Origin: an uncultured Flavobacteriaceae bacterium
GTDB lineage: Bacteria; Bacteroidota; Bacteroidia; Flavobacteriales; Flavobacteriaceae
DNA length: 64,000 nucleotides
NCBI GenBank assembly: GCA_947494695.1
Contig: CANLWB010000007.1
Span: 186,001-250,000 of the forward strand
Direction: 5' to 3'
A model generated the notes under the pieces. That model ran no database searches, had not been told where the DNA came from, and worked only from the letters and a program-made list of their open reading frames with translations. This document shows positions 21,061 to 36,620 of this stretch, in pieces. A program made the position numbers and the translations under genes. The first letter of the stretch is position 1; each line of letters starts with the position of its first letter.

Positions 21061-21225
21061 ACTGATACTACTTTTGGTTTTAAGTTAGTTCGTTTTAAAG
21101 ACGATAAAAAAAATGCAGTGTTGCAAAAAGTTAAAATCTACGTTAAAAAAATTAAAAAATCTACGTTTACAATATAAGACCTGTTTACTTTTAAAGTATA
21201 TTTATAACCGAATAAAAAACCTCTT

Positions 21226-21780
21226 ATGAATACCTTTTTAAAACGCATGTTGATCCTCTTGTTTGTAGTTGCTATAGGACTATTTCTTTATTCTTTTTTC
21301 GTTGAAAATATTTTTTCAAAACGTTTGAGTCCTAAAGATACTGTAGAATTTAAACTTAATGATTTAAAACTTGAGGTGTTTTATAACAGACCTTATAAAA
21401 AGGACAGGGAAATCTTTGGTGCCTTGGTTCCGTTTGATAGGGTATGGCGTACGGGAGCTAATGAGGCGACTACATTTGAAACCAACCAACCACTGGACGT
21501 ACTGGGAAAATCTTTACCCATTGGTAAATATACACTTTGGACCGTTCCCAAAGACTCAGTCTGGGACGTTATGTTTAATTCTAAACAATATACCTGGGGT
21601 GTTGACTCTGAAATGAAGCCCTTGTGGGATCCCAATTATGATGTTTTAAGTATTGAAGTACCTGTACAGAAGCTATCTGCTACAGTAGAACAATTTACCA
21701 TAGCTTTTGATAACTCTACCGATAATTTGTTCTTAACCATGGCTTGGGATAATGTTAAGGTTGCCGTTCCTCTTAAATAG
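21226..21780 (+). CDS. DUF2911 family membrane-anchored protein
   Basis: 184 residues. An N-terminal hydrophobic segment (about 8-27, MLILLFVVAIGLFLYSFFV) is likely an uncleaved anchor or signal. The rest is a DUF2911 beta-sandwich: LKLEVFYNRPYKKDREIFGA, VPFDRVWRTGANEATTFE, LPIGKYTLWTVPKD, VWDVMFNSK. The family is widespread in Bacteroidota and always exported; no biochemical function is known. It lies alone, divergent from the sigma-factor operon and 67 bp before meaB. Confidence 0.85.
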   Translation: MNTFLKRMLILLFVVAIGLFLYSFFVENIFSKRLSPKDTVEFKLNDLKLEVFYNRPYKKDREIFGALVPFDRVWRTGANEATTFETNQPLDVLGKSLPIGKYTLWTVPKDSVWDVMFNSKQYTWGVDSEMKPLWDPNYDVLSIEVPVQKLSATVEQFTIAFDNSTDNLFLTMAWDNVKVAVPLK

Positions 21781-21847
21781 GCTTAATAGGGCGTTGTACA
21801 TGCGGTTAAAAAAAAAGTAATACATTTAGACAAACACTTGTTTAGTT

Positions 21848-22924
21848 GTGGCAAAACAAAAGAAATCTGCACTTGAAGAGAAAAAAGGTATTTCTATTTC
21901 TGAAATCACCAACGCATCTTCTATAAAAACCATTCAGGAAAAACGTAGGTCCAAAATAAATACTGAGACCCTCGTTTCTGCTATTTTAAATAAAGACATA
22001 ACAGCTTTGAGTCGAGCCATTACCTTGGTTGAAAGCAAAAACAGAGCGCATTTAGAGAAGGCCAACACCATTATAAAAGCTTGTTTACCTCATGCTAACA
22101 AATCTATTCGAATTGGTATTACAGGGGTTCCGGGGGTTGGTAAAAGCACGTTTATTGAAACTTTTGGTAAGCACCTAACTTCCCTTGGTAAACGTATTGC
22201 TGTTCTGGCTATAGACCCCAGCAGCTCACTTACAAAAGGCAGCATTTTAGGTGATAAGACCCGAATGGAAGAATTGGTAAAAGATGATCATGCCTATATT
22301 CGTCCGTCTGCTTCAGGAGATTCTTTAGGTGGTGTGGCAAGGAAAACACGAGAAACCATTATTTTATGCGAAGCTGCCGGTTTCGATGTGATTCTTATAG
22401 AAACTGTAGGGGTTGGTCAAAGTGAAACTACCGTTCACAGCATGGTGGATTTCTTTTTATTATTAAAACTGGCCGGAGCAGGAGACGAACTGCAAGGCAT
22501 AAAACGAGGAATTGTTGAAATGGCAGATGCTATTGTCATTAATAAGGCCGATGGTGATAATTTAAAACGTGCTAAACTGGCTAAGGTAGAATTTAACAGA
22601 GCGCTTCACCTCTACCCCGAAAAAGATTCAAACTGGTCTCCCAGGGTTATGATATGCAGTGCTTTAAAAAATGAGGGAATTGATGCTGTTTGGGAGTTAA
22701 TTTTAGAGTATGTCGATGTAACGACTAAAAACCACTTTTTTAATAAAAAACGAAATGAGCAGAATAAATTCTGGCTTATTCAAACGATAGAAGACCAGCT
22801 AAAGTCCGATTTCTTTAACCGTCCAAAAATTAAAAAAGAACTAGAGCAGCAATTACAACTTATAGACACAAATCAAACCACACCCTTTGCTGCTGCAGAT
22901 TATCTTCTAAGTTTACTGGCTTAA
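21848..22924 (+). CDS. meaB: Methylmalonyl-CoA mutase-associated GTPase MeaB
   Basis: 358 residues. A G3E P-loop GTPase that protects methylmalonyl-CoA mutase and gates delivery of its adenosylcobalamin. Walker A TGVPGVGKST at about 92-101; VLAIDPSSSLTKGSILGDKTRM and IRPSASGDSLGGVA are MeaB signatures; VILIETVGVGQSE is the G3 region and VINKADGDN is G4. The start is GTG at 21848, the only initiator before the conserved part. The mutase subunits are not in this window. Convergent with the lipoprotein gene downstream. Confidence 0.93.
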   Translation: MAKQKKSALEEKKGISISEITNASSIKTIQEKRRSKINTETLVSAILNKDITALSRAITLVESKNRAHLEKANTIIKACLPHANKSIRIGITGVPGVGKSTFIETFGKHLTSLGKRIAVLAIDPSSSLTKGSILGDKTRMEELVKDDHAYIRPSASGDSLGGVARKTRETIILCEAAGFDVILIETVGVGQSETTVHSMVDFFLLLKLAGAGDELQGIKRGIVEMADAIVINKADGDNLKRAKLAKVEFNRALHLYPEKDSNWSPRVMICSALKNEGIDAVWELILEYVDVTTKNHFFNKKRNEQNKFWLIQTIEDQLKSDFFNRPKIKKELEQQLQLIDTNQTTPFAAADYLLSLLA

Positions 22925-22935
22925 TTTCTGAACAG

Positions 22936-22978
22936 AAAAAAGCCCGAACCATGCAACAAATATCACAATTCAGGCTTT
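22936..22978 (-). terminator. Terminator of lipoprotein gene A
   Basis: AAAGCC (22939-22944) pairs with GGCTTT (22973-22978), extended by inner pairs. On the minus strand a T-run follows. A closely related hairpin stands after paralogue C (25117-25154), so the duplicated unit includes the terminator. Confidence 0.65.
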
Positions 22979-23033
22979 ACAAATTATCAACCTTATATAT
23001 AGGCTTACACGATTATTAATTGCTTTTATTATT

Positions 23034-24212
23034 CTAATTACTAATAATTCGTGATGTAATGTCTAGTTTCGTTGGCTCAAATAGATCTTCACTGTTATAA
23101 TCATCATTGATCCTGGTGTAAAAAACTGCTGTTGTTTTATAAGTTAGTTCTGGAAAACGATTTTCCACAAATACATTCACATCTGCACTTTCTCCAGGCT
23201 TCAACCCAAAGGCAGGCACTTGTAACCCTGCCGTTATTACATTATAAGGAGGATCGATGACAGGACTAATATTTTCATAAGAAGGAATTCTTTGAGCAGT
23301 AGCAGTGAGACTCTGGTTTCCTTGATTAATCCATTTCGTCACACCAGAAAAAGCACTTCTCGATGTCCCATGAACTCCATCTGGAGTTGTAATCGATGTC
23401 GTTTCCATTTTTACGGGTTTCACCACATCCAGAATAATTTCTGCTGTAACAATTTTGTCCTCATCGTTATTTTTTAACGCCAGGAAAAATCGCTTTGGGT
23501 ATTTAAAATCAAAACTCGTATCAACCGTTGGAAACTCAACATTCAGATCTTCCAGAACGTCAGATGAATCCTGGGTGTAGTATAACCTAGTGCCTTCATA
23601 AGTAATGGTAGGTACTAAGCTTGAAAAATCGGTTCCAACCGGGAATAAAAGATATATTCTCTCTCTGTTAAAACCTGTTTCTACTCTTCTGGTTATAACA
23701 ATATCGTTAGGTAAGTCTCGGTTTTTACTTTTCTCGAATTTAATATCTGTAATTTCTAAAACTTCAGGAACTGGGGCTGCTTCTTTTACAACACTTACCA
23801 CGTAATTTAGGAGAGGTGCCTTATCACCTGTTGCTCTTGTAATTGTAAATCTATGCTCTTTTCCACCTTCAAAAGATAACTGTGCATCATTTCCAGGGGT
23901 GACATTGAATTTACTTAAGTTTAACTCCTCGGAAGTAATCGATGTACTCATATCATCTAATGAGTTTATCGTGTAAGGCACTGTTATTACAATTCTTCCC
24001 GGTGTTTCTTCTTTATTATCAACAATAACAGGTTGTGTAATTTCAACTCCAACAGGGTTTATTCCAAATAGAGGAAAGCTTGAGAGTTGAGCTTCTTCAA
24101 TATCTACTTCTGCTTCAACGGTTTGGTTTTCATCACTTGAATCGCAATTTACCATAAGCAATAAGGAAAACATTAGAATTCCTAAGCTCATTAATTTAAT
24201 CCCTTTTTTCAT
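23034..24212 (-). CDS. Paralogous surface lipoprotein A
   Basis: 392 residues. The signal peptide ends in LLLMVNC with lipobox Cys24. The next residues DSSDEN are acidic, like the flavobacterial lipoprotein export signal, so surface exposure is likely. The mature protein is all-beta: one domain about 30-145 (INPVGVEITQPVIVDNKEE, PGRIVITVPYTI), a second starting EITDIKFEKSKN (about 153), and a C-terminal domain ending DLFEPTKLDITSRIISN. I do not recognise a named family. Close paralogues lie at 24330-24839 (broken), 25194-26357 and, more distant, 29548-30744. The promoter carries the triple 21-bp-period repeat array. Confidence 0.85.
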   Translation of the reverse strand: MKKGIKLMSLGILMFSLLLMVNCDSSDENQTVEAEVDIEEAQLSSFPLFGINPVGVEITQPVIVDNKEETPGRIVITVPYTINSLDDMSTSITSEELNLSKFNVTPGNDAQLSFEGGKEHRFTITRATGDKAPLLNYVVSVVKEAAPVPEVLEITDIKFEKSKNRDLPNDIVITRRVETGFNRERIYLLFPVGTDFSSLVPTITYEGTRLYYTQDSSDVLEDLNVEFPTVDTSFDFKYPKRFFLALKNNDEDKIVTAEIILDVVKPVKMETTSITTPDGVHGTSRSAFSGVTKWINQGNQSLTATAQRIPSYENISPVIDPPYNVITAGLQVPAFGLKPGESADVNVFVENRFPELTYKTTAVFYTRINDDYNSEDLFEPTKLDITSRIISN

Positions 24213-24241
24213 TTATTCTTTTATTTAATTTAAACTTGGGA

Positions 24242-24329
24242 CAAACTTATAAAAGGACTATAATAATTCTAAATTTATATGGCGAACCTCCCTAATTACA
24301 TGGTAGATATCTTAAAAGTGATGGTAAAC
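24242..24329 (-). promoter_or_regulatory. Promoter A with triple direct repeat
   Basis: On the minus strand the -7 box is 24242-24249 (CAAACTTA on +, the complement of TAnnTTTG). After exactly 29 bp come three 9-mers starting at 24279, 24300 and 24321 (+ strand ATGGCGAAC, ATGGTAGAT, ATGGTAAAC), each 21 bp apart. This is likely the binding site of the LytTR regulator encoded at 28578-29312. The fourth repeat seen in B and C is missing, lost where the broken copy B joins. Confidence 0.7.
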
Positions 24330-24839
24330 AGTCATTAGGCAAGTCGTTATTTTTACTTTGTTCAAATTTAATATCTATAATTTCAAAACTTCAGGACCTG
24401 GAGCTGTTTCTCTGACAACACTGACTACATAATTTAGAAGTACCTCTTTATCTCCTCTTGCTTTTGAAACCGTAAATCTATGTTCTTTTCCTCCTTCAAA
24501 AGATAACTCTATATCATTTCCAGGTATGACACTGAATTTACTTAAGTTTAATTCTTCGGAAGTAATCGATGTACTAATATCATCTAATGAATTTATCGTG
24601 TAAGGTACTGTTATTACAATTCTACCGGGTACTTCCTCTTTATTATCGACAATAATGGGTTGGGTGAATTCAACCCCAACAGGATTTATTCCAAATAGAG
24701 GAAAGCTTGAGAGTTGAGCTTCTTCAATATCGACTTCTGTTTTAATAGTTTCGTTTTCATCGCTTGAATCGCAATTTACCATCAACAATAAGGAAAGCAC
24801 TAAAATCCCTAAGTTGATTAATTTAATCCCTTTTTTCAT
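24330..24839 (-). pseudogene. Broken surface lipoprotein copy B
   Basis: 154 codons are readable (24375-24839), nearly identical to the N-terminal 150 residues of paralogues A and C, including LLLMVNC and DSSDEN. Compared with C, one A is missing at the codon for Leu in PEVLEI, which shifts the frame and gives a stop after PEVLKL. Homology continues out of frame through the FEQSKN and DLP codons to about 24333, then joins directly to the promoter region of A. About 230 codons and the terminator are deleted. It could still yield a truncated secreted lipoprotein, since its promoter is intact. Confidence 0.8.
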
Positions 24840-24867
24840 TTTTTTATTAATTTGATTTAAATTGGGT

Positions 24868-24979
24868 CAAACCTATAAAAGGACTATAATAATTCTAAAT
24901 TTATATGGTGAACCACCCTAATTATATGGTGGATGTCTTTAAAAAAAGGGTGAACTAAAATGTAGTTTCAATGGTTAAC
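24868..24979 (-). promoter_or_regulatory. Promoter B with triple repeat and a fourth site
   Basis: -7 box at 24868-24875 (CAAACCTA on +), 29 bp, then 9-mers starting at 24905, 24926 and 24947 (ATGGTGAAC, ATGGTGGAT, AGGGTGAAC on +; 21-bp period), and a fourth, ATGGTTAAC, at 24971 after 24 bp. The sequence is very similar to promoters A and C. Confidence 0.7.
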
Positions 24980-25112
24980 ACTTTAAATATAAAAATGTTG
25001 CACGCAACAACACAGATAACTAGTATTAAATTGTTTAAATCTTATATTATAAAAAACGCACTTATAAACCCTGAAAGATTATCGATGTATTACACCATAA
25101 GCAAGCTAAAAA

Positions 25113-25154
25113 AGAAAAGCCTGAACCATGATAATTATACCATCATTCAAGCTT
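25113..25154 (-). terminator. Terminator of lipoprotein gene C
   Basis: AAGC at 25117 pairs with GCTT ending at 25154, with further imperfect pairing inside. On the minus strand a T-rich tract follows. It resembles the terminator after gene A. The rest of 24980-25193 has no convincing gene; the + strand frame there has no family resemblance. Confidence 0.6.
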
Positions 25155-25193
25155 AAACAAACTATCAACCTAAATAGTTATATACTAATACTT

Positions 25194-26357
25194 TTATTCA
25201 CTAATAATTTTTGAGGTTACAGATAACCTGGCGGGCTCAAATAAATCATCACTCTCACGATCCCGGTATATTTTGGTATAAAAAACAGCGGTAGTTTTAT
25301 ATGTTCCTGCTGGAAAATATTGAGATACTGACACGTTAACATTTGCACTTTCTCCTGGAGCTAGTCCTCCACTAGGTATATTTCTATCAACGCTAAGAGC
25401 TCCGTCTGAACCTGACGGACTTACATCTTCGTAAGTCGTTGCCTTTTGAAAAGTTATTCTATGATTTCCTTGATTGACCCATTTGGTTATATTCGTGTAG
25501 TAATCAGAAGTACCCGCTACTTTATCAGGCGTAGTCACGGATGTTGCTTCCATCTTTACCGGGTTTTTAATGTCTAAAATGACCTCGGCGGTAATTAATT
25601 CATCTTCATCTGCACTTTTAAGGACCAGGAAAAAGCGCTTTGGATATTTAAAGTCAAAACTCGTGTCAACCGTCGGATATTCCGTATCCACATTTACTGG
25701 AGCTATAGATGTATCTTGATTGTAATATAGCTTATTTCCCTTGTAAGTTATGGTTGGTACTAAATCGCTAAAATCTGTGTTATCTGGGAATAAAAGATAT
25801 ATCTTTTCGTTAAACGCACCATCTTCTGCTCTTCTGGTTATGGTAATATCGCCAGGCAAGTCCTTATTTTTACTTTGTTCAAATTTAATATCTGTAATTT
25901 CTAAAACTTCAGGAACTGGGGCTGCTTCTTTTACAACACTTACCACATAATTTAGGAGAGGTTCCTTATCGCCTGTTGCTCTTGCAATTGTAAATCTATG
26001 TTCTTTTCCACCTTCAAAAGATAACTGCGCATCATTTCCAGGGGTGACACTGAATTTACTTAAGTTTAACTCTTCGGAAGTAATCGATGTACTCATATCA
26101 TCTAATGAATTTATCGTGTAAGGTACTGTTATTACAATTCTACCGGGTACTTCCTCTTTATTATCGACAATAATGGGTTGGGTGAATTCAACCCCAACAG
26201 GATTTATTCCAAATAGAGGAAAGCTTGAGAGTTGAGCTTCTTCAATATCTACTTCTGTTTTTATAGTTTCGTTTTCATCGCTTGAGTCGCAATTTACCAT
26301 CAACAATAAGGAAAACATTAGAATTCCTATGCCGATTAATTTAATCCCTTTTTTCAT
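25194..26357 (-). CDS. Paralogous surface lipoprotein C
   Basis: 387 residues, the closest paralogue of A. N-terminus MKKGIKLIGIGILMFSLLLM then VNCDSSDEN: a type II signal peptide followed by an acidic surface-export signature. The first 175 residues are almost the same as in A and B, while the last 200 have diverged (A has FSSLVPTITYEGTRLYY, C has FSDLVPTITYKGNKLYY; the 300-350 stretch differs strongly). This pattern suggests a conserved anchor and stalk with a variable outer part. No known enzymatic motif. It is expressed from its own repeat-bearing promoter and ends in its own terminator. Confidence 0.85.
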   Translation of the reverse strand: MKKGIKLIGIGILMFSLLLMVNCDSSDENETIKTEVDIEEAQLSSFPLFGINPVGVEFTQPIIVDNKEEVPGRIVITVPYTINSLDDMSTSITSEELNLSKFSVTPGNDAQLSFEGGKEHRFTIARATGDKEPLLNYVVSVVKEAAPVPEVLEITDIKFEQSKNKDLPGDITITRRAEDGAFNEKIYLLFPDNTDFSDLVPTITYKGNKLYYNQDTSIAPVNVDTEYPTVDTSFDFKYPKRFFLVLKSADEDELITAEVILDIKNPVKMEATSVTTPDKVAGTSDYYTNITKWVNQGNHRITFQKATTYEDVSPSGSDGALSVDRNIPSGGLAPGESANVNVSVSQYFPAGTYKTTAVFYTKIYRDRESDDLFEPARLSVTSKIISE

Positions 26358-26384
26358 TTTTATTAATTTGATTTAAACTTAGCG

Positions 26385-26496
26385 CAAACCTATAAAAGCA
26401 CTGTATTACGTCTAAATTTATATGGTGAACCTCCCTAATTATAGGGTGGATGTCTTAAAAATCAGGGTAAACCAAAATATAGTTTTAATGGTTCAT
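26385..26496 (-). promoter_or_regulatory. Promoter C with triple repeat and a fourth site
   Basis: -7 box at 26385-26392 (CAAACCTA on +), 29 bp, then 9-mers starting at 26422, 26443 and 26464 (ATGGTGAAC, AGGGTGGAT, AGGGTAAAC on +; exact 21-bp period), and a fourth, ATGGTTCAT, at 26488 after 24 bp. No -33 TTG is visible at the right distance, as expected for an activator-dependent promoter. Nothing else is seen up to 26638. Confidence 0.7.
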
Positions 26497-26638
26497 ACTC
26501 TAAAATGATAATATCATGTATAACAACACAAAAAACTGATATTCAAAAATTTGAATGACATACTCTAAAACGTGTACTTATAAATCTGGAAAGATTATCG
26601 ACGTATTACGTACTAAAAATGGCAGAGAATTTTATTGG

Positions 26639-28576
26639 TTATTTGGCAAGGTTGAAGGTAATGGTATAACAAGCCCCAGGGTTGGACATAATTTCTAAAG
26701 TTCCTTTGATTTGCCTTGTTAATCCCTGAATAAGTTGTATTCCTAAAGATTGACTGTTCTCGACATTAAAATTTTCAGGAAAACCTACACCAGAATCCTG
26801 AATGGTGAGCACACATTGATCTTCTTCTTTAGATGCCTTAATACTTATTTCTCCTCTAGTTTTTCCACCAAAAGCGTATTTTATACTGTTGGCTATAATT
26901 TCATTTACAATCAAACCACAAGGTACCATTCGATCCATACCCAGTTTTATATTATCTATTTCTGTAGATATTTCTATATTCTGTTCAGAAAGATTATAAC
27001 TGGTTCCAAAATAATTTAGCAAACTATCTAAATATGTTTGTAAGTTAATCATAGACAAATCGTTAGACTTATATAATCTTTCATGTATAAAAGACATGGC
27101 TTGTATTTTATCCTGAACTTCCTGCAAGATTTCCGAAGAACTTTTATTGTTACCAAACTTATGCTGTAATCTAAATAAGCTTGCTACAATTTGTAAGTTG
27201 TTTTTAACCCTGTGATGAACTTCTTTCATTAATACTTCACGGTCTTTTAAAGCCTGAGATATAACCCCATTCTTTTCTTCCAGCTTTTTATTACTAATTT
27301 GCTTGTTTTTATAAGCATAAATTAAAGATGATAAAATCATTAAGAGGGCCACTAAAGCAGTGATAAGTATGATTTGTACGGTACGCTGATTTTCATTTTC
27401 CAACGCGCTTATTTTATTTACATTTGTAAGTAATTGAATCTCCTTATCTTTACTTTCCAAATCGTATTTAGCGTGCACTTCTTTTATCTGCCTATCCTTT
27501 TCTATTGAAAATAGAGAGTCCTGTACTTCATGATATTTTAAAATATACGTGTTGCTCTTTTTATAGTCCTTTTTTCTGGCATTATACTGGTAAAGTGCTT
27601 CATATACCTTAGACAATTGCGGTAATGCTTCTATTTTTAAAGCTGTAGACAGCGCTTCGCTATAATGTGATTCGGCTTTCTTAATATCCTCCTTTTTTTC
27701 GTAAACCGTTGCCAAAAGTAAATGGTTTGAAACAACATCTTCAGAAATTCCTAATGCTATACACAATTGTAGTGCTCTATTCGAGTACCTCAAAGCATCG
27801 TCTAAATTGTTTTCCTCAATACTAATATTTGAAAGATTTGTTAATCCGGTGCTAAGAATTTCCGGCAAATCTACTCGTTCTGAAATTTCAATGGATTCCT
27901 TCAGGCTCTCTTTTGCCTTTGCATACTTTTTTTGCCTCATATACATTTCAGAAACCGCTCCCAAAATATGAGATCTAAAATATTCATTACCGGTTTTTTT
28001 TGATAAGTCCAACGCTCTGTTATAAAATAAGGAACCGTTTTCATCATCTTCCAACCTACAAGAGTAGAGAGAACCAATATTACCAACTAATACAACTACA
28101 AGATTTTCTTCATTGTACTCTTCATAAATTTTAAGTGCTTTTAGGTAATAATTCAGGGCTTTACTAAACTCACCCATTTTTACATGGGTTACTCCAATAT
28201 TTTGATAGCACTTGGCCTTTCCTACATCGAAATTCAGTTCCTCGGACACCTCCAAAGCCTTTTTATGATAGTACATGGCCTGGACATGCTCTGTTTTATC
28301 ATTATATAAATTCCCCAGTCTTAAATAAAAAAAACCGCGATGCTTGCTGTTATCGGTCTTGGTTAGCTCTAGTCCTAACTTCGCATATTCTATAGCTTTA
28401 TCAATTTTAACCTTTTCGTAGGCATTGGTTAACTCTACATAGAGCTTTATTTTTTCCTCTTTATTTGCTGTAGATAACTTTTGTTCTAAACTGTCTATCT
28501 GGGCGGTTAAAAACAGGGTAGAACATAGTAAAGAGAAACAGGTAATTTTTTTTAAAAAAAGTAATAGTCTTGCCAT
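26639..28576 (-). CDS. TPR sensor histidine kinase (HisKA_2 type)
   Basis: 645 residues. Signal peptide (about 1-27), then about 350 periplasmic residues of tetratricopeptide repeats (YVELTNAYEKVKIDKAIEYA, KCYQNIGVTHVKMGEFSKAL and others). A coiled segment leads to one transmembrane helix at about 400-420 (IILITALVALLMILSSLIYAY). The HisKA_2 phospho-acceptor region is EVHHRVKNNLQIVASLF (His454-His455), and the ATPase domain has N-box NEIIANSIKYAF and G1 box DSGVGFPENF. Partner regulator gene 28578-29312 lies 1 bp upstream in the same operon. The TPRs probably sense a periplasmic protein or peptide. Confidence 0.92.
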   Translation of the reverse strand: MARLLLFLKKITCFSLLCSTLFLTAQIDSLEQKLSTANKEEKIKLYVELTNAYEKVKIDKAIEYAKLGLELTKTDNSKHRGFFYLRLGNLYNDKTEHVQAMYYHKKALEVSEELNFDVGKAKCYQNIGVTHVKMGEFSKALNYYLKALKIYEEYNEENLVVVLVGNIGSLYSCRLEDDENGSLFYNRALDLSKKTGNEYFRSHILGAVSEMYMRQKKYAKAKESLKESIEISERVDLPEILSTGLTNLSNISIEENNLDDALRYSNRALQLCIALGISEDVVSNHLLLATVYEKKEDIKKAESHYSEALSTALKIEALPQLSKVYEALYQYNARKKDYKKSNTYILKYHEVQDSLFSIEKDRQIKEVHAKYDLESKDKEIQLLTNVNKISALENENQRTVQIILITALVALLMILSSLIYAYKNKQISNKKLEEKNGVISQALKDREVLMKEVHHRVKNNLQIVASLFRLQHKFGNNKSSSEILQEVQDKIQAMSFIHERLYKSNDLSMINLQTYLDSLLNYFGTSYNLSEQNIEISTEIDNIKLGMDRMVPCGLIVNEIIANSIKYAFGGKTRGEISIKASKEEDQCVLTIQDSGVGFPENFNVENSQSLGIQLIQGLTRQIKGTLEIMSNPGACYTITFNLAK

Positions 28577-28577
28577 A

Positions 28578-29312
28578 TTACAAAATATCTAAACGCTCCA
28601 ATAATTGATTCTTATAGGCCTTGCTTATTGGTATTTTATGTTCTTTAATAAAAACAAAGCGATTTTCTATTTTATCTATCTTGTCCAGAGCTACAAGATA
28701 AGATCTATGAATTCTCAAAAATTTATCCTGCGGTACCTTTTCGTAAAGTTCTTTTAGAAACATATTAGCTAAAATCCTCCTATCATTAGTAATAATTTGA
28801 GTATAGTTATCCATAGCTTCAACCCACAGAATATTATTAACCTTTACACTAATTAATTGAGATTTATCCTTTACAAACAATGTCTCGGATACCTTTTGGC
28901 TACTCGACATTACCATTTTTGGTTCTCTCCCTTCATGATGCTTTTGCATCGCTATTTGAATCGCAAAGGACAATTCTTTAATATTAAAGGGCTTTAATAA
29001 AAACCCAAATGGTCTGGATTGTAACGCTTCTTTAAAAGTACGATCGTCTCCATAAGCTGTAAGAAAAACGATGGGGATATTATATTTGTCGTATATATCT
29101 GCCCCCGTAACAATACCGTTTTTGTCCCCAGTTATATTAATATCTAAAACAGCCACATCGGGAACAATTTCATCTACATATTTTATTGATTCGTCGTAAC
29201 TACTTGCAATTCCAATAATGGAATATCCCAATTTTTCTAAACTTATTTTAATATCTAACGCAATAGAAAATTCATCTTCTACTATAAGTACTTTTTTACT
29301 ACTATCTACCAT
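28578..29312 (-). CDS. LytTR-family response regulator
   Basis: 244 residues. N-terminal receiver domain: VLIVEDEFSIALDIK, phospho-acceptor Asp57 in VAVLDINITGDKNG, conserved Thr/Lys in VFLTAYGD and FLLKPFNIKEL. The C-terminal LytTR DNA-binding domain starts near 145 (LISVKVNNILWVEAMDNYTQI, then PQDKFLRIHRSYLVALDKID). LytTR domains bind pairs or arrays of about 9-bp direct repeats spaced by about two helical turns. Three flanking lipoprotein genes carry such arrays. First gene of the operon with the TPR kinase (1-bp gap). A TAnnTTTG box is at 29356-29363; no repeat array precedes it, so it is probably not self-activated in the same way. Confidence 0.93.
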   Translation of the reverse strand: MVDSSKKVLIVEDEFSIALDIKISLEKLGYSIIGIASSYDESIKYVDEIVPDVAVLDINITGDKNGIVTGADIYDKYNIPIVFLTAYGDDRTFKEALQSRPFGFLLKPFNIKELSFAIQIAMQKHHEGREPKMVMSSSQKVSETLFVKDKSQLISVKVNNILWVEAMDNYTQIITNDRRILANMFLKELYEKVPQDKFLRIHRSYLVALDKIDKIENRFVFIKEHKIPISKAYKNQLLERLDIL

Positions 29313-29355
29313 AACATTTTTAAGATTTGAGAGAACTATCTAATATAGTTAACGT

Positions 29356-29363
29356 CAAAACTA
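29356..29363 (-). promoter_or_regulatory. -7 box of the LytTR-kinase operon
   Basis: CAAAACTA on the + strand is a perfect complement of TAnnTTTG, about 43 bp before the regulator start codon. The direct-repeat array of the lipoprotein promoters is absent here. Confidence 0.45.
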
Positions 29364-29408
29364 TAAAAAACCCCTTATATTGTGTCAGATTTAATACCCT
29401 AAGAAGTC

Positions 29409-29465
29409 TTAAGAAGAAGTAATTCAGCAATATAACCGTATTATTTTTGCTAAATTACTTCTTAA
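29409..29465. repeat. Imperfect inverted repeat between lipoprotein D and regulator
   Basis: TTAAGAAGAAGTAATTCAGCAA at 29409-29430 (quoted in two parts: TTAAGAAGAAG, TAATTCAGCAA) pairs with TTGCTAAATTACTTCTTAA at 29447-29465 over about 18 of 19 positions, with a 16-nt loop. It follows the stop of neither gene closely enough to assign; it may be a terminator for lipoprotein D or an mRNA stability element. Confidence 0.6.
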
Positions 29466-29547
29466 AGTATGATAATTATGTAGTTTATTTGTAAATCAAC
29501 TCTTTTTATTAAATAAAATTCAATTTTATTTAACAATTGTTAAAGTT

Positions 29548-30744
29548 TTATTTTACCACAGTCGTTTTAACATTCAAGATAAACGGATCAAAGAGATCTT
29601 CATAATGATTGGTGTTGTCTACAAGATCATTGTTATTAATTCTGGCACGAGATAAATCATATTTTGGGTTAAATACAATATCCACTTCATAATTGCCTGT
29701 TTCTACCGTACCGTCTGCCTTAACTTCTATAATTACTCGTCCCTCTTCTCCTGGTTTTATAAGGGTTCCTTGTGATATATTATAAGGAACTAAGGTCGCT
29801 TCAAAAATGTTTCCTTTATCGTCTGAAGTCTTATCTACATAATTCCTGGCTTTTATATTATGTTCTATATAATGATTTCCTTTGTGCGTCCATTTAAATG
29901 AAAACCGTCTGGTGTCTCCCTGGGTTACATCCGGAGTCGATATTTCTGTTTGCTCAAATTCAATTGGGTTTTCAAAATCTACGATGACTCTATATCTCAT
30001 TAGATTTACGGCGTTCTCAACTAATAAAACAAGCTCATTAGTATTCATAGTTCCCTGTATATTATAAGAGCTGGTAAAATCAAAACTCAAATCTGTTTCT
30101 GGGTAATCTGCAGAATCTCCTGTTCCCTGTTTGTATTTTAACGATTCTCCTTCAAATTCGATTGTTGGAACAAGGTTTTCGATATCGGTTCCCTGAGGTA
30201 CCAAAATATAGATAGCCCCTCGATTGTTAAGGTATTCTGAAATTGCTTTTGCTTCAATATCTTTGTTTAAAGATCCATTTTTACTTTGTTCAAATTTAAA
30301 ATTAGTAATCTTTACTGCTGTGCTTTCTTCCTTTGCTACAGACACTAAATACTTAATACTTTTATCTGGATCTACTTTAGAGACTATAGTATAAGCTATA
30401 ACCGTTCCAGGTTCAAAAGACTCCACCTCACCAACTTTAGGGGATATTTCAAATTTACTTTCATCAAAATTAACAGATGCTAAGCTTAAACTAAGAACAT
30501 CTGTAGTCTCTGAAACAGAAACCACAATTCTTCCTGGTTTTGTTTCAACGCCATCCTCTATTATGGGCTGATCAATATTTATATCTAAATAGGTTACTTC
30601 CGAAAGTTTGAAATCATCTAATTTCGCTTCGTTTAAATCTACTGTAGTATCTCCTTGATCAGGGGTCGTGTTGTCATCATCTGAGCTACACCCTGCTAAC
30701 AAACCCACTAACAAAAAAATACTTACTTTAAATAAATTATTCAT
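29548..30744 (-). CDS. Paralogous surface lipoprotein D
   Basis: 398 residues, a more distant member of the A/B/C family. Lipobox LLAGC with Cys19 followed by SSDDDN, a good match to the flavobacterial surface-export signal. Shared landmarks: VDLNEAKLDDFKLS near 40, PGRIVVSVSETT, the 'ITNFKFEQSKNGSL' domain start (ITDIKFEQSKN in C), LVPTIEFEGESLKYKQGTG, DLSFDF, and the end EDLFDPFILNVKTTVVK. It shows the family is older than the recent A/B/C duplication. It lies upstream of the LytTR operon on the same strand, with its own repeat-bearing promoter. Confidence 0.85.
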   Translation of the reverse strand: MNNLFKVSIFLLVGLLAGCSSDDDNTTPDQGDTTVDLNEAKLDDFKLSEVTYLDINIDQPIIEDGVETKPGRIVVSVSETTDVLSLSLASVNFDESKFEISPKVGEVESFEPGTVIAYTIVSKVDPDKSIKYLVSVAKEESTAVKITNFKFEQSKNGSLNKDIEAKAISEYLNNRGAIYILVPQGTDIENLVPTIEFEGESLKYKQGTGDSADYPETDLSFDFTSSYNIQGTMNTNELVLLVENAVNLMRYRVIVDFENPIEFEQTEISTPDVTQGDTRRFSFKWTHKGNHYIEHNIKARNYVDKTSDDKGNIFEATLVPYNISQGTLIKPGEEGRVIIEVKADGTVETGNYEVDIVFNPKYDLSRARINNNDLVDNTNHYEDLFDPFILNVKTTVVK

Positions 30745-30764
30745 AATATTATTTCTTTTGACTT

Positions 30765-30852
30765 CAAAAGTACGGGATACCCGTAGCTGAGTAAAATTAA
30801 TATGGTAAATGAACGATCTCGATTGGTGAGTAGACTAAAAAAAATGGTGAAT
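30765..30852 (-). promoter_or_regulatory. Promoter D with triple direct repeat
   Basis: -7 box at 30765-30772 (CAAAAGTA on +), exactly 29 bp, then 9-mers starting at 30802, 30823 and 30844 (ATGGTAAAT, TTGGTGAGT, ATGGTGAAT on +; 21-bp period). Surrounding sequence is unlike promoters A-C, so conservation of spacing and 9-mers alone points to function. Confidence 0.75.
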
Positions 30853-30942
30853 TGACTTTTAGAGTTTCAAATTATGGCCCCTTATTCGTTTGTTTTTCAT
30901 GTAGTTTCGTATATCCCCTGTTTATTTTACTAAATCTATTCA

Positions 30943-30984
30943 ATAAAAAAACCTCTTCTCTTTGATAAAACAAAAAAGAAGAGG
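30943..30984 (-). terminator. Terminator of the SBBP-repeat gene
   Basis: CCTCTTCT (30952-30959) pairs with AGAAGAGG (30977-30984). On the minus strand the hairpin is followed by a run of seven or more T. It lies just after the stop of the gene ending at 31009. Confidence 0.75.
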
Positions 30985-31008
30985 CTTACCATTTAGCTAA
31001 TGCAAATG

Positions 31009-32781
31009 CTATTTCTTAATAAACTTAAGCGTTTTTTGTTCTTCACCGGATGTCACCCGTACAATGTACAACCCGGAATGAAAAGATTTCACTTCGAAAT
31101 CTATACATGAATGTTTATGATATTTTCTAGATGATGACGGAACCGGCATTCCGCTCCCTCCATCTAAAATGGTAATATTCACATTATCAAGGTCCCCTTT
31201 AAATTTCGGTCCAAGGTATACGTGTATCTTATCATGGGCTGGATTGGGCATGACCCGAGAATTCCCAACTGTATCTATATCGTCATTCCCATTGCCTGGG
31301 TCTGTTTGGCTTAGTTTCCTAACAAATATATCTTCAGAACCTTCAGATGACAGGTTAAATATACCGGTGCCAGGATCGAAATCTACCGTTCCTCCAAAAA
31401 AGCCAGTTGTATACATATTTCCATTTTCATCTAAATCTATAGCATAAGCAAAATCGTTTGTGCTACCACCGGTACTCGAAGCCCAAACAAAATTTCCATT
31501 GGTATCTAGTTTTTGAATAAACGTATCTGCATCAAAAATATCTCCTGTTGATACTCCTGTAGATGCTAAGTTTGTGACACCAGGCCCTGGATCGAAATCT
31601 TGAGTTCCTAAAAAGTATCCTACCCTGTATATATTTCCTTCGGCATCTATCTTCACAGATGTATCTGGTGTCACATCTAATGCTTTGGCCCAAATTGTGT
31701 TTCCATTAGCATCTAACTTTTGCATGAATATTGTTTGCAACCATGGATATGGATTGTCTTCTTTTGATGTTAAAAGCATTTGTCCTGCTCCAGGATCAAA
31801 ATCTAAAGTTCCTTCAAACCCTCCTGTTGTAATTAGGTTATTATCTGAATCAAGAGCAATAGAAGCGCCTACATCGAATCCGGGACCTCCAATTCGTCTT
31901 ACCCAAAGTAAGTCTCCATTGGTATTTAATTTCTGAATATAAACATCTGGAAGCGGAAATGGGCTACCTGAAGAAGGTGTTGCCGTTAGAATAGTTTCTC
32001 CAGTTCCTGGATCGAAATCTACAGATTCACTAAAGTATCCTGTTCTGTATATATGTCCTGTAGGGTCTACGACCATACCCGAAGTTGGTGAAAGTGCCAT
32101 ATCCTTAGCCCAAACAAGACCTCCATTGGCATCTAATTTTTGCATAAAGAATGCTACTCCTAAATTGGATGTAGCGGTTAAAATTGCCTCATCTGGACCA
32201 GAATCGAAATCGACCGTTCCACTAAATTCACCTGCTAGATAGAGGTTACCTGTAGCATCTAACGCCAAACTTCTTCCCGAGTCATTTTTGCTCCCTCCAA
32301 CGGTATTTGTCCATAACAGGATACCGTTAGAGTCTAATTTAAGAACAAAACTATCCTGAGCCCCCTTCGAAGATAGAAGTGTTTGTTCTGGGCCTGGATT
32401 AAAATCCGCTGTACCTTCAAAAGACCCTGTTAGGTATAGATTGTTATCATTATCAATAATCATAGACGTTCCTAGGTCTTCTCCTGGACCTCCTATATGT
32501 TTAGCCCAAAGTATGTTTCCGTCAGCATCCATTTTCTGGATCAAAATATCTCGATCTCCATTTGATTTAATTGAAGGCACACTTGTTTGATTAAATTCTA
32601 ATTCGTCTTTAAAATATCCCATGATGTATACATGACCATCATGGTCTACGACGACTTCTTCTCCTTCGTCGTGAGCAGCAGATCCTGCGCTATTTGCCCA
32701 TTCAAAATTCTGGGTAAAGGCACATGTTGTAAATAAAAAAATTAAGTAGGTTTTTAACTTTAAAATGGTTGTTGTCTTCAT
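31009..32781 (-). CDS. SBBP-repeat beta-propeller T9SS protein
   Basis: 590 residues with a signal peptide (TYLIFLFTTCAFTQ). Residues about 30-500 contain about nine SBBP-type blade repeats of 50-55 residues with the pattern DADGNILWAKHIGGPGED, then LYLTGSFEGTADFNPGPE. The blades probably close a beta-propeller; the repeated DFDPGxG loops may bind Ca2+. The C-terminal 80 residues (VMPNPAHDKIHVYLGP to KTLKFIKK) are a T9SS type A-like sorting domain, although the middle is atypical. Secreted or surface-displayed; ligand unknown. Monocistronic, followed by a terminator. Confidence 0.9.
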   Translation of the reverse strand: MKTTTILKLKTYLIFLFTTCAFTQNFEWANSAGSAAHDEGEEVVVDHDGHVYIMGYFKDELEFNQTSVPSIKSNGDRDILIQKMDADGNILWAKHIGGPGEDLGTSMIIDNDNNLYLTGSFEGTADFNPGPEQTLLSSKGAQDSFVLKLDSNGILLWTNTVGGSKNDSGRSLALDATGNLYLAGEFSGTVDFDSGPDEAILTATSNLGVAFFMQKLDANGGLVWAKDMALSPTSGMVVDPTGHIYRTGYFSESVDFDPGTGETILTATPSSGSPFPLPDVYIQKLNTNGDLLWVRRIGGPGFDVGASIALDSDNNLITTGGFEGTLDFDPGAGQMLLTSKEDNPYPWLQTIFMQKLDANGNTIWAKALDVTPDTSVKIDAEGNIYRVGYFLGTQDFDPGPGVTNLASTGVSTGDIFDADTFIQKLDTNGNFVWASSTGGSTNDFAYAIDLDENGNMYTTGFFGGTVDFDPGTGIFNLSSEGSEDIFVRKLSQTDPGNGNDDIDTVGNSRVMPNPAHDKIHVYLGPKFKGDLDNVNITILDGGSGMPVPSSSRKYHKHSCIDFEVKSFHSGLYIVRVTSGEEQKTLKFIKK

Positions 32782-33618
32782 GGTTAATTTAAGAAGTATT
32801 ATTAACCCGTTGTTTATTTTGATGAAACTCTATCAATTTGAGTGAATTTTACAATTGAAATGAATGCAATTAACGCTTTAACTTAAGTTTATGCTAAGTG
32901 TTGGTTATTTAGTCTTTCGACTTTAATTTATGCCCACGCAATAGAAATACTCAGGACAAACTAAAGCGAAGTACCTAATAAGGCTATCGTAAATGTCAAT
33001 TCCAGTTACTAAATGTATTCTCGACACGCCTCCATAAATCGGGATTTACGCTAACAAACATCTAACTAGCAATTTTAAACTCTAAATGCACAACAGGTTA
33101 TTATTAATATATTAATTTGAGAATGGGCACATGATTACTTACTTCGTATTTTTAAAACAAAAATCGGGTATGATATTAATTCTTAATATGTCATAAAATC
33201 TGGTTTTTGGCAGATACCAATGCAATTAAATTATGTGCTATTAATTAGGGGAACAATGGGTAGCTTAAAGCCTCTTTTTCTGTTTTTTTTTCATATAGTG
33301 TGTACGGTTATTAGATTATTGGGTATTTAAGTTTATTAATAATGTATTTATCAGCGCCATTTATTTCTATCAGTAAAGCATGTAAAACAAACAATAGTTA
33401 TAAATGTTTAAACATAATAACTATTGAAGCTATATACCAAGACATCTTTAATTCAAACCAATAACATACCCCTAAAGATTATTACCGAATTTTTCTAAAA
33501 AGTAGATAGGGGTTATAGGGTTTTGTCACAACATCAACACAGATTGTTAATGGTAAATTTAGAACATTATTCGGCAGTAATCTTATTATCGGGAGTATGC
33601 TCACTTAAAAAGGTTTTT
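32782..33618. other. Long intergenic stretch with decayed sequence
   Basis: About 840 bp with no supportable gene. It contains a 35-bp palindrome (33392-33426), an ACCCCTA/TAGGGGT hairpin (about 33467-33518) and the downstream side of an orphan promoter. AT-rich and full of stops in all frames; it looks like the remains of a lost gene region. Confidence 0.5.
33392..33426. repeat. 35-bp near-perfect palindrome
   Basis: Outer arms CAATAGTTAT (33392-33401) and ATAACTATTG (33417-33426) are exact inverted copies. Inside them ATGTTTAAACAT (33404-33415) is a perfect 12-bp palindrome. Confidence 0.7.
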
Positions 33619-33720
33619 CATGTTTTTTTATTTCAATATATCATTTTACAGCATATGAAAGAAATTAAAATGGTGAGTCATTCATTTAAATTGGTGAATG
33701 ATTCAAAAGGCATGGTAAGT
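33619..33720 (-). promoter_or_regulatory. Orphan triple-repeat promoter with gene remnant
   Basis: 9-mers starting at 33670, 33691 and 33712 (ATGGTGAGT, TTGGTGAAT, ATGGTAAGT on +) have the exact 21-bp period of promoters A-D. At the matching distance (33633-33640) the -7 box is degenerate (TATATTGA on minus). The minus-strand ATG at 33619-33621 opens MKNLFK and then TGA; compare MNNLFKVS of lipoprotein D. It is probably the front end of a lost fifth family member. Confidence 0.6.
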
Positions 33721-33762
33721 TATCCAATAAAGCAAGATTGGATATTATAATTAATATCCGAA

Positions 33763-34338
33763 TTAGTTAGGGGAAGGAACAAATCGCTTTAAAAGATACG
33801 TTCCAAGTTTGTAAAATATAAAGCCAGAGATGGCACCAAATGTTAATCCGCAAACAATATCTAACGGATAATGCACGCCAACATAAATACGACTATAGGC
33901 TACTACGGCACTCCAGAAAAGTAATATAAATATGAGTTTTTTATAATACGATCGTAGCATTAAACCTGCAAAAACAGCCGCCGCCATGGAGTTCGATGAG
34001 TGTCCTGAAAAGAATCCGTATTTCCCACATCTTACAGCAATAAATCGCATTTGATCAATGAGATTAGCTTCTCCGCAAGGTCTTGGACGTTGAAATCCCC
34101 GTTTAAATACGTTTGTGATTTGATCTGTAAATGTGATCATTAATGCCACCACTACCACAAAAACGAGTAATGATTTCAGCCCATATTTTTTATAGAGTAA
34201 AAACAATAAGATAGCATACAAAGGAATAAAAGTTAATTTATGCGTAATAATTAACCATAAATTATCCCAGGGCTCAGATCCTAAATTGTTTAAAAAAAGA
34301 AATAATTCGGTGTCGCGTTCAAGAAGTGTTTCAATCAT
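33763..34338 (-). CDS. PAP2-family membrane phosphatase
   Basis: 191 residues with about five transmembrane helices. The three phosphatase motifs are KRGFQRPRP (about 78-86), SGHSSNS with the catalytic His, and SRIYVGVHYPLD with the second catalytic His. Members remove phosphate from lipid or isoprenoid phosphates such as undecaprenyl pyrophosphate or phosphatidic acid, with the active site facing the periplasm. The 75-residue acidic protein gene lies 11 bp upstream on the same strand, so they may be co-transcribed. Confidence 0.9.
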   Translation of the reverse strand: MIETLLERDTELFLFLNNLGSEPWDNLWLIITHKLTFIPLYAILLFLLYKKYGLKSLLVFVVVVALMITFTDQITNVFKRGFQRPRPCGEANLIDQMRFIAVRCGKYGFFSGHSSNSMAAAVFAGLMLRSYYKKLIFILLFWSAVVAYSRIYVGVHYPLDIVCGLTFGAISGFIFYKLGTYLLKRFVPSPN

Positions 34339-34349
34339 TTTTAAAGGTG

Positions 34350-34577
34350 CTAATCTTCGTATTTTGCAATTTCGCTATCGTAGAATTCGGTGGCTAATGT
34401 AATAGCATTTTCTGTTTCGGCTGCAAGTTCTTTTTGATCCTCTGCATCAAAATCTTCAAACCACTCCACATCATCATTCTCTAAGTTTATAATAAACCTG
34501 GGGAATTCGGTATGAATTACAAAAATGGCATTAGGGTATGCTGTATTATCGCCTAATATAAATTTTGGAAGGGTCAT
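34350..34577 (-). CDS. Small acidic conserved flavobacterial protein
   Basis: 75 residues, strongly acidic, no signal peptide or membrane segment: MTLPKFILGDNTAYPNAIFV, then a short beta region (HTEFPRFIINLENDDVEWFE) and an acidic helix (EDQKELAAETENAITLATEF). I recall similar small proteins in other Flavobacteriaceae but no function. The coding frame uses ordinary codons for this genome and is the only good frame here. First of a possible two-gene unit with the PAP2 gene. Confidence 0.75.
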   Translation of the reverse strand: MTLPKFILGDNTAYPNAIFVIHTEFPRFIINLENDDVEWFEDFDAEDQKELAAETENAITLATEFYDSEIAKYED

Positions 34578-34742
34578 TTTTTAAAGCTTTAAAATATTAT
34601 AAATGCATAGGTTAGGTTCTTATTCCCTAGTCTGCTGGTTTAACGTCTCTTCTTCATTAAAAATTTTTAAACCAGTTCAATGACAAACATAATCGTTTTT
34701 TTCTGTTTTTTAAACCTTATTACCAATAAGTATGACTTTTCT

Positions 34743-36116
34743 TTAATCCGGTCTTATCAATTTTCGGGTTAGATGATTAAATCGTAAATACAATAGGACG
34801 GCTGCTGTCGATAGTCCAGCCAACAGCCCCAACCAAATACCAAAACTACCGTATGCCTCTTCTTTTCCTAAAAACCAACTCACCGGAAACCCAACCAGCC
34901 AATAAGATACAAAAGTGATTATGGTAGGTATTTTAACATCCTGTAGTCCACGTAAAGCTCCCAGTACCACCACCTGAACGCCGTCACTTATTTGAAATAT
35001 GGCGGCAACTATGAGCAACTTGGATGCAATGCCAACGACTTCGGTATTATCTGCAAGATTTTTTACATCATCAAAATCGACATAGAGTTTTGGCAGCTCA
35101 TTATGAAATACAAAAAAGATAAGCGCAAAACTAACAGCAAATAGAGTTCCCAATGCAAATAGGGAAAAGGCTATTCGACGTAATTCCCGATATGCCTTTA
35201 ATCCTTTTTGATTCCCCACCCGTATCATAGAAGCGACACTTAAACCCGTGAATATCATAAAGGCCATAGACGATAAATTCAAGGCAATTTGATTAGCTGC
35301 CTGAGGGTTCTTACCTAATAATCCACTTAACCAGATGGCCGCTGTAAAAATGGCTACTTCGAAAAACATCTGCATAGCACTTGGCGCTCCCAGATTTACT
35401 ATTTTTTTTAGCATGAACTTATTTAAAACAAACAATTTTATGTTTGTTACAAATGCTTTCGATTTTTCTTTTCCTTTGAGTAAATACCACAGGTACCACA
35501 CCATAATAACACGAGATGCTAATGTTCCATATGCTGCCCCAACGATACCCAGTTTTGGAAAACCAAAGGTTCCAAATATTAGTACATAGTTAAGAACAAC
35601 ATTTACAATATTACCCAATAATGTTGCATACATGGGGGCTTTTGTCATGGAAAGCCCATCACTAAACTGTTTGAACGCCTGAAAAACCACCAATGGAATC
35701 AAAGAAATGGCTACTAGGTCTAAATACGGAATGGCCAGCTTAACCACTTCGGGAGGTTGTTTCATCAAATACATAAGTGGCTTGGCAATGAAAACCAACA
35801 GGAATAACAAGACGCCTAAAATCGTACAAAGAAATAAACCATGTTTAAAGGATGATTTTCCCTGAATAAAGTCTTTGGCACCATCAGACTCTGCGATCAA
35901 TGGTGTTATGGCTGTTGAAAAACCAATGCCTAGAGACATCGCAATAAACATAAAACTATTCCCCAGAGATACGGCTGCCAATTGTGCTGTTCCCAATTGC
36001 CCAACCATAATGTTGTCAATAAAACTCACAAAGGTATGCCCTAACATACCCAACATCACAGGAGCTGCCAATTTTAAATTATAACGAAACTCCCTTGTAT
36101 AGTTTTTTAATTGCAT
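34743..36116 (-). CDS. MATE-family efflux transporter
   Basis: 457 residues with 12 hydrophobic segments in two halves, normal for MATE. NorM-like features: KLAAPVMLGMLGHTFVSFIDNIMVGQLG at the start (quoted in part: APVMLGMLGHTFVSFIDN), AAVSLGNSFMFI, and in the second half GAPSAMQMFFEVAIF and AANQIALNLSSMAFM. MATE proteins export cationic drugs or metabolites in exchange for Na+ or H+. Inner membrane. The gene stands alone with a nearly leaderless promoter (box 36121-36128). Confidence 0.93.
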   Translation of the reverse strand: MQLKNYTREFRYNLKLAAPVMLGMLGHTFVSFIDNIMVGQLGTAQLAAVSLGNSFMFIAMSLGIGFSTAITPLIAESDGAKDFIQGKSSFKHGLFLCTILGVLLFLLVFIAKPLMYLMKQPPEVVKLAIPYLDLVAISLIPLVVFQAFKQFSDGLSMTKAPMYATLLGNIVNVVLNYVLIFGTFGFPKLGIVGAAYGTLASRVIMVWYLWYLLKGKEKSKAFVTNIKLFVLNKFMLKKIVNLGAPSAMQMFFEVAIFTAAIWLSGLLGKNPQAANQIALNLSSMAFMIFTGLSVASMIRVGNQKGLKAYRELRRIAFSLFALGTLFAVSFALIFFVFHNELPKLYVDFDDVKNLADNTEVVGIASKLLIVAAIFQISDGVQVVVLGALRGLQDVKIPTIITFVSYWLVGFPVSWFLGKEEAYGSFGIWLGLLAGLSTAAVLLYLRFNHLTRKLIRPD

Positions 36117-36120
36117 TGGA

Positions 36121-36128
36121 CAAAAATA
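36121..36128 (-). promoter_or_regulatory. -7 box of the MATE gene, leaderless
   Basis: CAAAAATA on + is TATTTTTG on the coding strand, a perfect TAnnTTTG box. Only 4 nt (36117-36120) separate it from the ATG, so the mRNA probably starts at the start codon. Confidence 0.55.
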
Positions 36129-36259
36129 ACCTTTAGCGAAATATTTTTAAGATTTTTTCAATCATCTTTTAATTATTGTTAAATATTAACAATTGTTAAC
36201 GAGTCTTTACAATTGCATATAACTTTTTAACATGTTTTTGTTTGTAATTTCATACATTC

Positions 36260-36388: not shown

Positions 36389-36620
36389 ATGCGTTCTACT
36401 TTTTAGATTAACAGTTCTAAAATTATTAATGAGATCGCTAAATATATGGGATCATACCAGAACCGATCTTAATACCTCCTTATCCATAAATGATTTCCAA
36501 AATGAATTTAACGGGCACGATAATGGATCAAGTAGGTTGTATTAAAGTTTCTATAAATAATACTCTAAACAGGAAGTAAAAAATAGCGCCCCTACTTTTT
36601 AAACGTTGATTACAGTTTTA

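Follow-up and report, generated by a model that had tools for sequence, protein, structure and literature searches.

Arrays of three 9-bp repeats as predicted operators of a two-component LytTR regulator upstream of surface-protein genes in Flavivirga

LytTR regulators are described as binding direct repeats of 9 bp that lie just upstream of a promoter and are usually separated by 12 bp (PMC6193735, PMC11347149), and the operator has been defined by such repeats 10-13 bp apart in that position (PMC11347149). Three-repeat LytTR operators have been described outside Bacteroidetes for RcoM1 and CoxC (PMC11347149), and divergent repeats of LytTR type are already published (PMC6193735). We analyzed a 64,000-nucleotide stretch of DNA (hereafter the window; positions 186,001 to 250,000 of contig CANLWB010000007.1) from the genome of an uncultured Flavobacteriaceae bacterium of Flavivirga. 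The window contains arrays of three 9-mers which have the form of a LytTR operator, namely 9-bp direct repeats separated by 12 bp and placed upstream of a promoter. We consider these arrays to be predicted operators of the LytTR response regulator encoded at 28578-29312, which would work as a two-component activator on three stacked sites, and we put the probability of this reading at about 0.84. The sequences show that the architecture has three sites, stands in a fixed phase to the promoter, recurs before many genes for surface proteins, and occurs and is lost together with the regulator.

Like the AgrA/ComE type, the locus combines a LytTR response regulator with 9-bp direct repeats and 12-bp spacers upstream of a promoter. 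Unlike that type, in which repeats are paired, three repeats are the rule here (44 of 49 non-redundant arrays, in a scan that requires three); the kinase has a HisKA_2 domain with tetratricopeptide repeats (TPRs), and the conserved FhRhHRS motif reads FLRIHRS in the window regulator instead of FFRCHNS as in AgrA (PMC4227749). RcoM1 and CoxC also have operators of three direct LytTR repeats with a period of about two helical turns, but those repeats are of 8 bp (TTCNNGCA or TTNNNGCN) and belong to the cox promoters for CO oxidation (PMC11347149), whereas the 9-mer here is ATGGTGAAT. In CoxC, the sensor domain is in the same protein as LytTR, whereas here a receiver domain, a two-component pair and about two dozen promoters are involved; neither a same-protein sensor domain nor 8-bp repeats of the TTCNNGCA type were found. 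Bacteroides LRS-like operons share direct repeats just upstream of a Bacteroidetes promoter and 19 bp between the promoter elements, but they are described with two 11-bp repeats with 11-bp spacers before TGTA-19 bp-TATCTTTG, and with a regulator that has transmembrane segments and presumably regulates itself, in contrast to the soluble regulator with many targets here (PMC6193735). Since three-repeat LytTR operators are published for RcoM1 and CoxC, the arrays are a variant of a known operator type. New here are the different 9-mer, the surface-protein regulon, and the fact that a two-component LytTR regulator of Bacteroidetes would use three-site operators as a rule. Literature searches found no paper naming such a system, which does not prove that none exists, and found little on such regulators in flavobacteria.

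The original prediction had proposed five promoters with triple 9-mers at an exact 21-bp period. A pattern scan of the window for [AT][TG]GG[TC][AG][AG][AG][CT] in three copies with 12-bp spacers found arrays starting at 24279, 24905, 26422, 30802 and 33670, all on the + strand, which confirmed that the five arrays are real and lie where they had been reported. The - strand of the window had no triple, and no triple with any other spacer (8 to 19 bp scanned) was found in the window, where single 9-mers numbered 44 on the + strand and 36 on the - strand. In 300 first-order Markov windows of 64 kb each, both strands were free of triples. CAAAnnTA, that is, TAnnTTTG on the - strand, was found at 24242, 24868, 26385 and 30765, and in each case the array begins exactly 8+29 bp further on, as had been claimed for promoters A-D. 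The fifth array was likewise found at 33670/33691/33712 with the exact 21-bp period, but it had no proper -7 box (TCAATATA at offset 37).

24279..24329, + strand: array A, with 9-mers at 24279, 24300 and 24321 (ATGGCGAAC, ATGGTAGAT, ATGGTAAAC); pattern scan
24242..24249, - strand: -7 box of promoter A (TAnnTTTG), 29 bp from the array; pattern scan
24905..24955, + strand: array B; pattern scan
24868..24875, - strand: -7 box of promoter B; pattern scan
26422..26472, + strand: array C, with the kinase on one side and lipoprotein C on the other; pattern scan, synteny
26385..26392, - strand: -7 box of promoter C; pattern scan
30802..30852, + strand: array D; pattern scan
30765..30772, - strand: -7 box of promoter D; pattern scan
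33670..33720, + strand: fifth array, without a proper -7 box, 889 bp before a gene for an SBBP protein with a type IX secretion (T9SS) tail; pattern scan

Arrays A, B and C count as one observation because the downstream genes are paralogous (identity of C to A 73%, to B 86%), which leaves three independent observations in the window: A-C, D and the fifth array. D and the fifth array had been said to share almost nothing else with A-C, but they have slightly more in common with them, namely AAATTAA next to the array and a second spacer rich in A.

To describe the arrays across all fetched loci, 69 of 70 position weight matrix rows were kept, rows with fewer than two recorded copies were removed, and the remainder was collapsed at 75% identity into 49 non-redundant arrays. 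A matrix match at 17833 of locus L118 looked coding and was removed by hand before the arrays were counted. Besides the 44 arrays with three copies, two had four and three had two, and two-copy sites are under-counted because the scan required three copies. Distances between strong single 9-mers (23 sequences, up to 70 bp) are independent of that requirement: 58 pairs were 21 bp apart, 22 were 42 bp apart, and no other distance occurred more than twice. GG at positions 3-4 of the 9-mer was present in every copy of the 46 arrays with three full copies, in a scan that favours GG. The 9-mer ATGGTGAAT matches the broad LytTR consensus at only five of the eight specified positions.

The arrays stand in a fixed phase to the promoter. 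With one mismatch at most, CAAAnnTA lay at offset 37 in 35 of the 49 arrays, and no other offset from 45 to 11 bp had it in more than two. TAnnTTTG is described as the Bacteroidetes -7 consensus (PMC9723704); by this box, 35 of the 49 arrays have a Bacteroidetes sigma-A promoter at one fixed offset. At a second peak, at offset 10 (27/49), an A/T-rich stretch beside the array reads TT[TA][GA] on the strand of the gene. This would be a -33 element of degenerate sequence, separated from the -7 box by 19 bp, with the first 9-mer 6 bp upstream of it; it has G on the sense strand in only 25 of the 49 arrays. The distance from array to gene start was 56-80 bp in 31 of the 39 cases with a frame longer than 100 aa.

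The main rival to activation is repression, in which the array-bound regulator would keep the surface genes off until a signal arrives, because the LytTR protein CoxC, whose operator has three repeats, is described as a repressor (PMC11347149). The gap of just 6 bp between array and -33 also speaks for it. The CoxC repeats, however, overlap -35, while the arrays here lie upstream of -33, the position described for RcoM1 and most activating LytTR regulators (PMC11347149), and the degenerate -33 element, with its sense-strand G in 25 arrays, fits an activator-dependent promoter. Repression thus appears unlikely, and activation is the sign that we favour.

The regulator and kinase that the original prediction had placed inside the cluster (26639-29312) were both recognized by Pfam.

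28578..29312, - strand: response regulator with receiver (PF00072) and LytTR (PF04397) domains, the proposed array binder; Pfam
26639..28576, - strand: TPR sensor histidine kinase (TPR_12, HisKA_2, HATPase_c), the proposed partner kinase; Pfam

With 64.3 bits for PF00072 (cut-off 30.2) and 75.3 bits for PF04397 (cut-off 22.6), the protein is a LytTR-type response regulator. Among solved structures, its LytTR domain matched 3d6w at E 1.2e-4, and AgrA and ComE more weakly (E 0.02-0.04). The order regulator-kinase-lipoprotein C was found in 14 of 14 close-orthologue loci (68-77% identity) from Flavivirga, Aquimarina and other Flavobacteriaceae, and all 14 have the array before lipoprotein C (the copy in L119 is weaker). 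In the window, the regulator gene is served by a separate -7 box at 29356, with no array. Some Aquimarina loci (L122:9854 and L195), unlike the window, have an array shortly upstream of the regulator gene, suggesting autoregulation there and not in the window. Between lipoprotein D and the regulator, a hairpin-forming repeat spotted by eye at 29403-29455 (AGAAGTAATT...AATTACTTCT) is possibly a terminator which separates D from the regulator promoter at 29356.

Two models were used in genome searches. R1 is a sequence-only model from the five window arrays and was searched against the whole genome (5.49 Mb, 77 contigs); R2 was made from 20 arrays of this genome, so that its arrays match R2 by construction. 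The searches score only part of the initial candidates, with stricter filters for sets of more than 40 genomes (the family draw and Aquimarina). The regulator was counted as absent where no match reached E<=1e-40 in Flavivirga, 1e-60 in Aquimarina or 1e-50 in the family.

The arrays tracked orthologues of the 28578-29312 regulator, as had been predicted. Eight of 12 Flavivirga genomes have the regulator (the window's own and seven at 74-79% identity, E<=1e-40). Arrays at E<=1e-6 were present in all eight, including the own genome, which is the source of the model, and in none of the four others; three of these four had no array at E<=0.05, and G004 had one match at 0.03. LytTR domains were found in all 12 (9-34 per genome; 23 in the own genome, 9-21 in the four array-less genomes). 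In Aquimarina, 12 of 66 genomes have the regulator (E<=1e-60) and all 12 have arrays (E<=2.6e-7), compared with one of 54 genomes without it (G340, 2e-7; next best 1.8e-4). In a draw of 299 genomes from the family, arrays at E<=1e-6 were found in 3/3 with a close regulator (own included) and 0/296 others. These counts share ancestry, and Fisher values are only a guide. Arrays in genomes without the regulator had been named as what would speak against the prediction: at E<=1e-6 there was a single relic, in G340, and at looser cut-offs there were weak matches, four of them real arrays of a different period. Taken together, the results support the predicted link between regulator and arrays.

Two cases of loss were informative. 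The G340 array adjoins what is left of a lipoprotein gene, its last 33 codons (94% identical to those of L122), and 106 of 117 surrounding bases match the L122 array; the regulator was not found at E<=1e-60, nor was the lipoprotein body in the 3-kb stretch. This array reads as the deletion scar of a lost locus. In G004, the regulator was not found, and a 59% identical lipoprotein C is present with the -7 box CAAACTTA. The three array positions there read ATGGGGTTT, TGTTAGCAT and TTTATCCTA, with scores of -1.0, -17.2 and -20.7. Since gene and -7 box are kept and the array is gone, the array is not retained without the regulator even if the gene stays.

We rechecked 14 weak loci whose genomes lack a close orthologue or a strong array; weak matches in G329, G375 and G376 were left out. 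Four of the 14, one in G112 and three in Aquimarina, contain triplets of such 9-mers with steps of 20+21 bp, all in genomes without a close regulator orthologue.

L098:1499-1549: 20+21 array in G112
L203:1497-1547: 20+21 array in G331 (Aquimarina)
L204:1496-1546: 20+21 array in G337 (Aquimarina)
L206:1504-1554: 20+21 array in G351 (Aquimarina)

Each has a tblastn match to a LytTR domain (25-32% identity) about 80-200 bp away, with the array on the side following the LytTR gene, and one strand of a simulated megabase contained no 20+21 triple. In G112, the LytTR protein begins with apparent membrane segments, and a further gene lies beyond the array. Among the other weak loci, L207 has a LytTR gene and no such array, and L099-L102, L205, L208, L209, L075 and L169 have no such array. 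Because the 20+21 arrays lie beside different LytTR genes, they point to a site class read by LytTR proteins.

One or more other LytTR paralogues might bind the arrays with or instead of the window regulator. LytTR domains number 23 in the genome, including one at about 5 kb from the arrays on contig C17, and the 20+21 arrays follow a different LytTR gene in four genomes, as if related proteins read similar 9-mers. Presence and absence of the 21+21 arrays, however, follow the orthologue of the window regulator in two genera, array-less Flavivirga still hold 9-21 LytTR domains, and an array adjoins the orthologue in 14/14 close loci. Binding by paralogues is therefore quite improbable, and the regulator at 28578-29312 remains our candidate.

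The predicted targets in the window are as follows.

23034..24212, - strand: lipoprotein A, predicted target; open reading frame (ORF), paralogue comparison
24375..24839, - strand: lipoprotein B, truncated paralogue of 154 aa; ORF, paralogue comparison
25194..26357, - strand: lipoprotein C, predicted target; ORF, synteny, structure model
29548..30744, - strand: lipoprotein D, predicted target; ORF, synteny
31009..32781, - strand: SBBP beta-propeller-repeat protein ending in a T9SS tail, probably controlled by the fifth array; Pfam

The AlphaFold2 model of lipoprotein C is nearly all beta (mean pLDDT 86.9, pTM 0.64). Against the PDB, the query TM was at most 0.27 among the 50 matches listed, which include Ig/cadherin-type multi-domain proteins; the model suggests a surface Ig-like protein at the level of architecture and no more. 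The truncated lipoprotein B gene retains a full array and -7 box.

The own genome has 21 full arrays (all three 9-mers) and three partial ones (L054:12163, L054:15943, L055:906) in seven loci, window included; those outside it form clusters on contigs C17, C22, C7 (143-154 kb), C6 and C5, with one on C4. At E<=0.05, R2 gave 27 matches, of which 24 are the counted arrays; the rest are a two-copy partial (C7:150871), a degenerate site (C7:144158) and C29:1698, which was left out of inspection. Nineteen of the 21 full arrays lie 56-80 bp upstream of a gene start, the exceptions being the fifth array and one array of the C7 cluster at 137 bp. The eight stretches L045-L052 and the window were also searched for operators of other LytTR regulators, in the form of repeats with a 21-bp step next to a -7 box. 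Of 22 rows at 21 bp, 12 A/T-rich ones were left aside, and the other 10 revealed no second type of operator: four were known arrays, and six, at four places, were chance-like, one of them within a coding frame (41574).

Genes headed by arrays mostly encode lipoproteins or proteins with T9SS tails. By a Pfam scan of nine downstream proteins from outside the window, those of C22 and C6 are DUF285 lipoproteins, and those of C7 and C5 are BspA-type leucine-rich repeat (LRR) proteins with a T9SS tail; a short C5 protein had only sub-cut-off matches. The C4 protein has a T9SS tail and a Vgb_lyase score just under the cut-off (49.9 vs 50). The C17 lipoprotein belongs to no Pfam family; identity to lipoprotein C is 32% for the pair on C17. 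The C17 arrays (L045:10675-10725 and 12873-12923) have four 9-mers each, near-identical flanks and two distant lipoprotein relatives downstream, with a LytTR regulator encoded at a distance of about 5 kb. In most of the lipoproteins in the set, acidic residues come right after the cysteine; surface-export signals of Bacteroidetes are described as likewise having acidic residues just past the cysteine (PMC5080379). Surface lipoproteins had been predicted as the targets, and lipoproteins are indeed among them, but the range is wider and takes in DUF285, BspA-type LRR and beta-propeller proteins.

That the repeats are shared solely through promoter copying with duplicated genes, with no regulatory role, is suggested by the A-C paralogues and the related genes in the C22, C7 and C5 clusters, but is highly improbable, since the array precedes unrelated families (Ig-like lipoprotein, DUF285, BspA-type LRR, beta-propeller) with divergent spacers and a constant period and gap, and since in G004 the array is gone and the downstream gene kept.

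The fifth array had been taken for an orphan site, which it probably is not. Another Flavivirga, G005 (L080), has a homologous array 390 bp before the orthologous SBBP/T9SS gene, compared with 889 bp in the window, where no ORF of at least 60 aa lies on the strand of the gene between array and gene. The simplest reading is a long-leader promoter of the SBBP/T9SS gene. A lone or non-coding RNA promoter was considered and dropped, given the array before the same gene in G005 and no Rfam match at gathering score in 20000-38000. A block (AGAGGCTTTWAGCTACCCAT) between the fifth array and the gene is conserved in the two Flavivirga species (32860-33760 and L080). In addition, a six-codon frame (MKNLFK, then stop) 49 bp from the fifth array resembles the start of D-type lipoproteins and may be a gene remnant.

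Several points weigh against operators of this one regulator acting as activation sites. The fifth array stands without a good -7 box, and the array cut-off of E<=1e-6 was fixed after the results were seen. At E<=0.01, 11 of 54 regulator-less Aquimarina match (10 besides G340), and five of 296 family genomes without a close regulator match at 3e-5 to 6e-5; conversely, G089, with a 38% relative of the regulator, had no array match at E<=1e-4. Among the next relatives, L131-L139 (39-54% identity), only four of nine have an array in the flank, namely Microscilla L131 and the metagenome-assembled genomes L135, L136 and L137, and the other five have none. The whole-genome model gave matches at E<=0.01 in two of these nine genomes, one being the L135 array (1.5e-4) and the other a place in G322 with no array on inspection; the nineteen remoter loci L140-L158 were left out of the array scan. 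Co-occurrence was assessed for the window regulator alone among the 23 LytTR domains of the genome. Because the 20+21 sites appear to belong to another LytTR protein, the 9-mer is not private to the window regulator. Finally, position alone speaks for activation, while the CoxC operator represses.

We propose the following mechanism. The TPR/HisKA_2 kinase would sense an envelope signal and phosphorylate the regulator, of which three protomers would bind head to tail on successive 9-mers. Because 21 bp is two helical turns, the three protomers would lie on one face of the DNA, next to -33. The promoter-proximal protomer, 6 bp from TT[TA][GA], could then recruit sigma-A RNA polymerase. The output would be a coordinated switch of the surface coat, made of lipoproteins and T9SS-secreted adhesin-like proteins.

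A broader picture, to which we give somewhat less than an even chance, is tentatively drawn for flavobacteria. This LytTR system might have as its working unit an obligate stack of three, sometimes four, protomers on one face of the DNA, and might have assembled its surface-coat regulon as the operator came to stand upstream of unrelated families of secreted proteins. Regulator and operator might share one history of gain, retention and loss, promoter strength might depend on the number of copies and the quality of the sites, and sister LytTR proteins might use the same kind of stack with steps of 20+21 bp.

For the biology of the organism, the finding means that a marine bacterium has the same three-part site, probably with one reader protein, before about two dozen genes, mostly for surface proteins. 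It suggests that the BspA-type LRR, DUF285 and Ig-like surface proteins of Flavivirga are one switchable set. The 20+21 arrays are a sister system worth separate study, and the arrays provide a two-component instance of three-site LytTR operators for the study of LytTR stacking. The analysis also links a response regulator from a large protein family to a list of predicted targets and to an operator of precise form.

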